33,139 nt of DNA, from assembly GCA_017889265.1 (NCBI GenBank), contig JAGHEK010000036.1:1-33139 (forward strand), written 5' to 3'. Position 1 is the stretch's first letter; every line of letters starts with the position of its first letter. Made by a program: the position numbers and the translations under genes. A model generated the notes under the pieces. It worked only from the letters and a program-made list of their open reading frames with translations, was not told the origin of the DNA and did not search any database. Positions 24,008-26,661 of this stretch are shown here, piece after piece. The stretch is from Romboutsia sp. (GTDB lineage Bacteria > Bacillota > Clostridia > Peptostreptococcales > Peptostreptococcaceae).

Positions 24008-24592
24008 ATGAGAAGAAGAAAAAATAAACTTGAAAAGATAAATAAAAGTATATTAATTATAGGTATTATTTTTATATTTTCTATTGTAGTTGGGAGTTTT
24101 TTAAATAAAATTTGGCCAAGCTATCAAAAAGAAATATTTTTAAATATATCACCTATGATTGATTACTACGATAGTAATTTGAATTTAAAATCTAATGTAA
24201 TAAATAATTTGAAATCGGATTTTTTACTTATTTTTATTATGAGTTTATCAACTCTTTTTGTTTTTACATTTCCTATTGCTATGATATTATTTATAATAAA
24301 AGGTATTTCTATCGGATACACTATAAATAGTATTATTTTGGCACTAAAAATAAAAAGTATAAAAATGATATTAGTAACATTTTCAAAAAATATAATAGTA
24401 ATACCGGGTACTATAATTCTTTTAATAATAGGTATTAACTATGCAAAAGAAGTTTTATTTCAAAAAAAGAAAAATATTTTACCATTATTTAATAGACATA
24501 TATTAAATATGTTGCTTTTGATTTTCGGAACAATTTTTGTACAGGCTATTATAAATTTTTTAATAACGAGTTTAATGAAAATGTTGGCTTAA
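24008..24592 (+). CDS. spoIIM: Stage II sporulation protein M
   Basis: ~194 aa multi-TM protein, FPIAMILFIIKGISIGYTINSII; between NUDIX and xerD-like genes as in related genomes. Confidence 0.88.
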   Translation: MRRRKNKLEKINKSILIIGIIFIFSIVVGSFLNKIWPSYQKEIFLNISPMIDYYDSNLNLKSNVINNLKSDFLLIFIMSLSTLFVFTFPIAMILFIIKGISIGYTINSIILALKIKSIKMILVTFSKNIIVIPGTIILLIIGINYAKEVLFQKKKNILPLFNRHILNMLLLIFGTIFVQAIINFLITSLMKMLA

Positions 24593-24602
24593 GGAGTCTT
24601 TA

Positions 24603-25523
24603 ATGGAAGTTATAAATCAGTATTTAAATTATATAAAATATAAAAAAAATTTATCTAAAAATACTATAGATTCTTATTATGTTGATATAAAAAAATATTT
24701 TAATTACTTAAACTCAAATGGTATAGATTTAAAAAGTGTTACTGAAAATGATATAATAAGCTATATTATAAAGTTAGAGTCAAATAAAATATCTCCATCA
24801 TCTATATCTAGAAATATATCATCTATTAAATCATTTCATGAATATTTATTTTTTAACCATATAAGTATGAATAATCCTGCTAAGACAATTAAAAAGCCGA
24901 AAGTATCGAAATATGATATGAATATTTTATCTAAAGAAGAAATCTATTTATTACTAGATTTTAAAATGGATGATAAAAAATCAATCAGAGACAAAGCGAT
25001 TTTTGAAATTTTATATGGAACGGGAATAAAAGTATCGGAACTTGTTATGCTTGATATTGATGATATAAATTTAAGTTTAGATTATATACATTGTAAAAAT
25101 ACTAAAATAGATAGAATAATACCAATAACTGATGTAGTTAGGTTTTATTTAAAAAAATATATAAAAGAAGCTAGATGTGAAATTGCAAAAGAATATGAAA
25201 AAGCATTATTCGTTAATTCATTTGGAAATAGATTTACAAGGCAAGGTCTTTGGAAATTAATCAAAAAAAGAGCAGAATATGTTAATATAAAGAAAAATAT
25301 AAATCCAAGTATGCTTAGAAATTCATTTGCCATACACCTTCTAAATGAAGGAGCTAATATAGCGGTAGTAGGTAAGATACTTGGAAATTCTAATTTATCT
25401 AGTATGCAATCTTATATAGAACATATTGATAATAATATAAGAAAAGAGATAAAAGACAAACATCCTAGAAAAACTAATAAAGGAGGTTTTTTTGATGAGA
25501 GTAATTTGGATGATAATAGATAG
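24603..25523 (+). CDS. XerD-type tyrosine recombinase homolog with substituted catalytic residues
   Basis: SAM-like N-terminal core-binding domain and catalytic fold (GTGIKVSELVMLDIDDI, NPSMLRNSFAIHLLNEGANIAVVGKILGNSNLSSMQSYIEH). Confidence 0.88.
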   Translation: MEVINQYLNYIKYKKNLSKNTIDSYYVDIKKYFNYLNSNGIDLKSVTENDIISYIIKLESNKISPSSISRNISSIKSFHEYLFFNHISMNNPAKTIKKPKVSKYDMNILSKEEIYLLLDFKMDDKKSIRDKAIFEILYGTGIKVSELVMLDIDDINLSLDYIHCKNTKIDRIIPITDVVRFYLKKYIKEARCEIAKEYEKALFVNSFGNRFTRQGLWKLIKKRAEYVNIKKNINPSMLRNSFAIHLLNEGANIAVVGKILGNSNLSSMQSYIEHIDNNIRKEIKDKHPRKTNKGGFFDESNLDDNR

Positions 25524-26661
25524 CGTCGGTATAGGTGAAATGCCTGATTCTAAAGATTTTGGTGATATAGGTGTTAATACTTTAGGTAATATAGTTAAAT
25601 TTTATAAAGATATAAAAATACCTAACTTAATAAATTTAGGAATAGCTAATATAGATAAAATTGATTTTTTAGACAGTATAGAAAATCCTATAGGTTGTTT
25701 TGGTAGATGTTTAGAAGTATCAAATGGAAAAGATACTACTACAGGACATTGGGAAATGACTGGTGTACTTGTTAAAAAGCCTTTTAAAACTTTCGAAAAT
25801 GGGTTTCCAAAAGATATAATAGAAGAATTTGAAAGAAGAACTAATAGAAAAGTAGTTGGAAATAAACCAGCTTCGGGAACAGAAATATTAGACGAATATG
25901 GAGAACATCAAATGAAAACTGGAGATGTTATAGTTTATACTTCTGCAGATAGTGTTTTTCAAATAGCTGCACATGAAGAAGTTATACCTCTTGATGAACT
26001 TTATAAAATGTGCGAAATCGCAAGAAAAATAATGATAGGAGATAATGCAGTTGCAAGAGTAATAGCAAGACCTTATATAGGAAAGAAAAAGGGAGAGTTT
26101 GAAAGAACTTCAAACAGAAGAGATTACTCTTTAAATCCGTTTGAAAAGACGGTGCTTGATTATATAAAAGAGAGTAACTTAGATGTTATCGCAGTAGGAA
26201 AAATAGAAGATATATTTAATGGACAAGGAATAACAGAAGCAATACATACGAAAGATAATATGGATGGTGTAGACCAGACTATAAATTATATCAAAAAAGA
26301 AAATAAAGGTCTTATATTTACTAATTTAGTAGATTTTGATTCAAAATATGGTCATAGAAGAGATGTTTTAGGGTATAAGAATGCTTTAGAAGAATTTGAT
26401 AAAAGAATTCCTGAAATAATAGATGCTATGAAAGAAGATGATATTTTAATAATAAATTCAGACCATGGAAATGACCCTACATATAAAGGAACAGACCATA
26501 CAAGAGAAAGTATACCAGTATTAGTATATGGTAAAAACATAAAAAACGGAGTAAATTTAGGGATTAGAAAAAGTTTTGCCGATATTGGTAAAACAGTTTC
26601 TGATATCTTAAATATAGATAAACTTGAAAATGGAATAAGTTTCAAAGACGAAATTATGTAA
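25495..26661 (+). CDS. deoB: Phosphopentomutase
   Basis: RVIWMIIDSVGIGEMPDSKDFGDIGVNTLGNI, TTTGHWEMTG, SDHGNDPTYKGTDHTRE; SD aggagg at 25481-25486, ATG at 25495 (ORF track 25492 is TTG). Confidence 0.97.
   Translation: MRVIWMIIDSVGIGEMPDSKDFGDIGVNTLGNIVKFYKDIKIPNLINLGIANIDKIDFLDSIENPIGCFGRCLEVSNGKDTTTGHWEMTGVLVKKPFKTFENGFPKDIIEEFERRTNRKVVGNKPASGTEILDEYGEHQMKTGDVIVYTSADSVFQIAAHEEVIPLDELYKMCEIARKIMIGDNAVARVIARPYIGKKKGEFERTSNRRDYSLNPFEKTVLDYIKESNLDVIAVGKIEDIFNGQGITEAIHTKDNMDGVDQTINYIKKENKGLIFTNLVDFDSKYGHRRDVLGYKNALEEFDKRIPEIIDAMKEDDILIINSDHGNDPTYKGTDHTRESIPVLVYGKNIKNGVNLGIRKSFADIGKTVSDILNIDKLENGISFKDEIM

Follow-up and report, generated by a model that had tools for sequence, protein, structure and literature searches.

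The window, a 33,139-nucleotide stretch of a Romboutsia sp. contig, carries a true, vertically inherited XerD of a small-genome Peptostreptococcaceae bacterium. Of the R-K-H-R-H-Y residues that mark a functional XerCD recombinase, this protein keeps two of six, the second Arg and the Tyr. Judging from homology, normal strand cleavage has most likely been lost from the XerD of the whole family, because the hairpin Lys is unconserved and both His are replaced throughout, in addition to an Arg I that is mostly Lys. Resolution of chromosome dimers would most likely fall to a single XerS-like recombinase whose active site is intact and which would act at an adjoining 34-bp dif candidate in the terminus, and XerD would have been retained as a DNA-binding chromosome protein that cleaves little or not at all. 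I give this explanation as a whole a probability of about two in three.

The xerD gene and its locus

The coordinates of the xerD open reading frame are exact, from the ATG at 24603 to the end of the stop codon at 25523 (Table 1). Among curated families, the best match of its product is XerD TIGR02225, at 265.4 bits, under the equivalog cut-off of 329.6; the HMMER alignment with E. coli XerD (1A0P) has E = 1.4e-36, and both Xer domains are present. The gene order in the window is spoIIM-like, xerD, deoB and purine-nucleoside phosphorylase, the usual order of the XerD locus of Firmicutes, and the overlap between xerD and deoB is similar (26 bp) in the sister species. Besides sharing the deoB-adjoining locus, the Peptostreptococcaceae XerDs form one well-supported group in the tree, in keeping with common descent. 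The identification as XerD, proposed in the initial annotation, is therefore borne out by synteny and best family match. A horizontal or phage-integrase origin was ruled out, since locus and tree fit a vertical XerD, as was membership of the streptococcal XerD-like family (NF002685; 47.2 bits for a cut-off of 178). An AlphaFold model of the protein (pLDDT 81, pTM 0.62) has the predicted fold of a tyrosine recombinase, matching XerA 5HXY at 4e-15 and XerD 1A0P at 2e-13, with a poor domain arrangement (rmsd >12 Å to both).

Table 1. Genes of the xerD locus and residues of interest in XerD, with their positions in the window
Feature	Positions	Strand	Remarks
SpoIIM-like gene	24008..24592	+	upstream of xerD; fast-evolving; TIGR02831 32 bits, cut-off 100
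xerD orthologue	24603..25523	+	306 aa; active site down to R239 and Y271
K143, at the Arg I position (E. coli XerD R148)	25029..25031	+	GLRVSEL -> GIKVSEL; HMMER alignment
beta2-beta3 hairpin CKNTKIDR	25092..25115	+	catalytic Lys absent; one residue shorter than GKGNKER
R213-Q214, TRQ DNA-recognition helix	25239..25244	+	invariant in 61/61; TRQ also in E. coli XerD
S236, at the first-His position (H244)	25308..25310	+	SPHVLRH -> NPSMLRN
R239, second active-site Arg (R247)	25317..25319	+	kept in 61/61
N262, at the last-His position (H270)	25386..25388	+	LGHSDLSTTQIY -> LGNSNLSSMQSY
Y271, nucleophile position (Y279)	25413..25415	+	kept here and in 60/61; Ser in the sister species (SSLQYS, L005)
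deoB (phosphopentomutase)	25495..26661	+	its first 29 bp overlap the 3' end of xerD

Active-site residues

The initial annotation had described a retained, full-length gene whose product has Lys for Arg I, Ser for the first His and Asn for the late His, with the second Arg and the nucleophile Tyr in place. The HMMER alignment agrees at each of these positions, and the gene is full-length. The alignment adds a further loss, that of the hairpin Lys: where E. coli XerD reads GKGNKER, including K172, the window protein reads CKN-TKIDR, with no Lys at K172. These residues support one of the two readings offered in the initial annotation, that the protein is impaired in catalysis, which is probable. 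The sister species shares the Lys, Ser and Asn with the window, and its protein is without the Tyr position as well.

A full-length XerD orthologue is present in 61 of 71 Peptostreptococcaceae genomes, the named relatives being Romboutsia, Clostridioides including C. difficile, Terrisporobacter, Intestinibacter, Peptacetobacter, Tepidibacter and Faecalimicrobium. The substitutions, noted in the initial annotation for the window's protein alone, occur family-wide in these 61 orthologues and are neither a chance event nor an oddity of the window's genome, which rules out a decay specific to that genome. At the Arg I position there are 51 Lys and 10 Arg. The K172 position is unconserved, an aligned Lys being found in only 4 of the 61, while the second Lys of the hairpin, K168, is present in 58 and R171 in all. 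The first His is replaced by Thr (32), Ser (26), Arg (2) or Asn (1), and the last by Asn (60) or Ser (1). The second Arg is kept in every orthologue, and the Tyr in all except that of the sister species. Also invariant are R213, Q214 and W217, which belong to DNA recognition, and the C-terminal R289.

In other Peptostreptococcales families the hairpin Lys is unconserved and the first His is Gln, Asn or Phe in several, with Arg I, the second Arg, the last His and the Tyr mostly intact. Many Clostridia MAGs have this pattern too, whereas records of Bacillales, Desulfotomaculaceae and Omnitrophota keep R-K-H-R-H-Y. Loss of the active site thus looks stepwise and furthest advanced in Peptostreptococcaceae. 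No XerD was found in the Peptostreptococcus-like genus g13, so that the job for which XerD is retained is dispensable in that genus.

Other recombinases of the genome

The window's own genome (88.7% complete) encodes three PF00589 proteins, XerD, an XerS-like and an XerC-like protein; the complete genome G047 encodes four, the same three types and an unclassified protein of 381 aa. The XerS-like protein (375 aa, L002:1456-2583) has the full catalytic R-K-H-R-H-Y set, and so answers positively the question, raised in the initial annotation, of whether another Xer protein of the genome has it. It matches XerS (NF003462) best of all families, at 158.7 bits, short of the cut-off of 267. Such a protein is found in 68 of 71 Peptostreptococcaceae genomes (E <= 1e-30) and in 160 of 167 good Peptostreptococcales genomes. 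Its motifs TYGLR and SPHKLR are invariant in the sequences compared, and LDH..Y is present in 39 of 40 sequences, this last motif being unmatched in one.

The XerC-like protein (303 aa, L003:1165-2076, G000:C26) is encoded next to uppP. In this protein and its relatives (L101-L130), Arg I is replaced by Leu, the first His by Lys or Arg and the last His by Trp, and the Tyr is kept in 31 of 31. It co-occurs with SpoIVA, being present in 52 of 54 SpoIVA-positive and 0 of 17 SpoIVA-negative genomes (raw counts, uncorrected for shared ancestry).

None of the three PF00589 proteins of the window's genome, at its 88.7% completeness, exceeds the XerC cut-off; no canonical XerC that might act as partner is thus seen there. 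The suggestion in the initial annotation that the window protein might work with a partner is not supported: no canonical XerC is seen, the XerS-like protein is of the single-recombinase type, and the XerC-like protein is itself altered and is missing from several genomes that have XerD.

These observations also bear on the possibility that XerD catalysis has been re-tooled, the set K/R - S/T - R - N - Y, together with K168 and R171, cleaving slowly or at a special site, either alone or with the XerC-like protein. Near-invariance of the Tyr and the second Arg goes beyond the obvious need of a pure DNA binder, so that some residual or altered chemistry is possible; the Asn, K168 and R171 are nearly as constant or fully so, Arg I is still Arg in 10 genomes, and an XerC-like paralogue with its Tyr kept is encoded in the same genome. 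However, conservation to the same degree as the Tyr is reached by 67 of the 290 alignment columns, four of the six catalytic positions are altered, both His in all members, and in the sister species the Tyr position has gone too. A joint action with the XerC-like protein would moreover be denied to the XerD-bearing genomes that do not have it. Re-tooled cleavage is on balance unlikely.

Selection on xerD

Across Peptostreptococcaceae, XerD is held by purifying selection: the 18 congeneric pairs from genera other than the window's have dN/dS values of 0.02-0.14, and family-wide most values fall in that range. In the window's own genus the constraint is relaxed, as indicated by a dN/dS of 0.41 and by the lost Tyr of the sister species. 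Between window and sister species, the ratios, which are rough in this genus as dS is high, are 0.41 for xerD, 0.41 for the spoIIM-like gene, 0.31 for the XerC-like gene, 0.17 for xerS-like, 0.125 for deoB and 0.08 for uppP. The spoIIM-like gene, then, matches xerD in evolutionary rate within this genus, though SpoIVA is present.

The excess of xerD over deoB and xerS-like, the sister's lost Tyr and the absence of XerD from g13 are what would be expected if XerD had lost its role upon takeover by the XerS-like protein and were drifting out of the family, the window gene representing a late stage. Such passive decay would not, however, leave 60 of 61 genomes with one and the same Asn, and it fits poorly with the low family-wide dN/dS and a full-length gene in 61 of 71 genomes; I consider it improbable. 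Still less probable is retention of XerD for a sporulation-linked chromosome function: XerD is found in 53 of 54 SpoIVA-positive and 8 of 17 SpoIVA-negative genomes (raw counts, uncorrected for shared ancestry) and xerD adjoins the spoIIM-like gene, but the eight SpoIVA-negative genomes that keep it (G019, G031-G036 and the incomplete G030) belong to several genera.

A dif candidate at the terminus

In four genomes the B. subtilis-type XerD half-site TTATGTWAACT was neither enriched (7-17 copies per genome, versus 18-29 for the reversed control) nor obviously clustered at the terminus, and none of 13 such sites inspected for a 28-bp XerCD dif had a good XerC arm.

A 34-bp dyad with two imperfect inverted arms, AACTAKTCTTTAAATGTRKATTTAGGGAATAGTT, lies upstream of the XerS-like gene and is a strong dif candidate. 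With up to 3 mismatches allowed, all 14 good genomes searched contain exactly one copy each, where the reversed control pattern gives 0 matches and the chance expectation is 4e-6 per genome. When the pattern is broadened, all 8 additional good genomes searched also give the dyad (weaker or second sites appear in G036 and G060), and so does the sister species, where it reads AACTATTCCTAAAAACAAAATTTTAGGAATAGTT. In 17 of 22 genomes, no more than 870 bp separate the dyad from the XerS-like gene. When the chromosome is anchored on dnaA, the dyad maps at 49.2-49.9% of its length in five genomes of five, and the XerS-like gene in four of them. In a g13 genome (G039) the gene lies 102 kb from the dyad, yet the dyad keeps its place at 49.7%; this would be expected if it is the site, and not the gene, that must sit at the terminus. 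The relatives thus have a unique dif-like terminus site of the kind that accompanies XerS, next to the gene; in the window's own genome (88.7% complete) the dyad was not found, the XerS-like contig ending 488 bp upstream of the gene.

A scan of 72,556 plasmid records gave matches in seven only, all from Peptostreptococcales. In Acetoanaerobium (Filifactoraceae), the dyad lies 135 bp from xerS-like on a 2.6-Mb record that is classed as a plasmid. Six Paraclostridium plasmids carry dif-like sites and no match to the recombinase gene, as is usual for plasmid resolution sites of the cer/psi type; presumably these sites serve dimer resolution via the XerS-like protein of the host. On the plasmids L291, L292, L293 and L295 the right arm ATTTAGGGAATAGT(T) is exact, and two carry tetB(P). 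The dyad was absent from the viral contigs and phages searched.

Two other elements flank the XerS-like gene. A second half-site, TTTAAGGRATAGTTGAA, is found about 70-80 bp before its start codon in many genomes (e.g. L075, L078 and L082) and perhaps reflects autoregulation by the recombinase. Downstream of the gene, GAACAAATGTTTG is conserved in 23 loci; it is possibly the LexA box of a neighbouring lexA, a gene seen in the sister locus (L004).

The literature searched has the dyad sequence in one place, where it is predicted to be a response-regulator site upstream of a 'tyrosine recombinase', CDR20291_1855 (PMC6222199). The literature searched yielded no pairing of XerS with Clostridioides difficile and no description of a dif for Peptostreptococcaceae.

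A possible role for XerD

SMC unloading by B. subtilis XerD reportedly proceeds without need for recombination. For a XerD retained as a DNA binder with little or no cleavage, the most plausible job would be this unloading of SMC in the terminus region. In B. subtilis, XerD removes SMC near the terminus (Karaboja 2021, as cited in PMC12322038 and PMC8357415). Since the B. subtilis half-site was not enriched, this role, argued by analogy, is put forward tentatively, as possible rather than probable. Equally speculative would be a complete division of labour in Peptostreptococcaceae, in which the XerS-like protein does the cutting, at a dif of its own, and XerD is now a non-cutting factor devoted to the terminus and SMC unloading, a natural separation-of-function allele fixed family-wide.

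Significance and comparison with known systems

XerCD-dif is regarded as near-universal in Firmicutes. Earlier predictions of Firmicutes dif sites used XerCD-based models (PMC3025954). In Peptostreptococcaceae, including C. difficile, the annotated XerD does not have the residues that normal cutting needs, and the terminus is occupied by another recombinase and another site. The dyad provides a concrete dif candidate for this group, and natural XerDs poor in catalysis offer a route to ask whether the chromosome-organising job stands apart from recombination. A family-wide, apparently catalytically impaired XerD beside an XerS-like/dif system was not found described in the literature searched.

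The window protein resembles bacterial XerD (TIGR02225) and B. subtilis RipX/XerD in the order of its deoB locus, its domain make-up, the TRQ helix and the C-terminal HPR. It differs from them in that the XerDs of its family have neither the hairpin Lys nor the two His, Arg I is mostly Lys and no canonical XerC is seen.

Streptococci, too, keep a non-canonical XerD-like protein (NF002685/PRK02436) beside a single XerS recombinase. That gene, however, lies at the scpAB locus, whereas the window's xerD is at the spoIIM-deoB locus; the Tyr is mostly kept in Peptostreptococcaceae, and the NF002685 score is far below its cut-off.

As in the XerS/difSL system of streptococci and lactococci (PMC5357621), a lone recombinase, about 356-375 aa long, has an imperfect dyad adjoining its gene. 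By contrast with difSL, the Peptostreptococcales site is 34 bp and not 31 and has a different sequence, and the match to NF003462 is 159 versus 267 bits.

The Arg I to Lys change is the one made in Tn1549 Int, where R225K stopped cleavage in crystals with DNA still bound and served as the inactive control in excision assays (PMC5871717); the corresponding Cre mutation is cited by the same authors as having the same effect. Those mutants, which bind DNA and do not cleave it, were made in the laboratory, whereas in Peptostreptococcaceae XerD the change is natural and is accompanied by three further losses.
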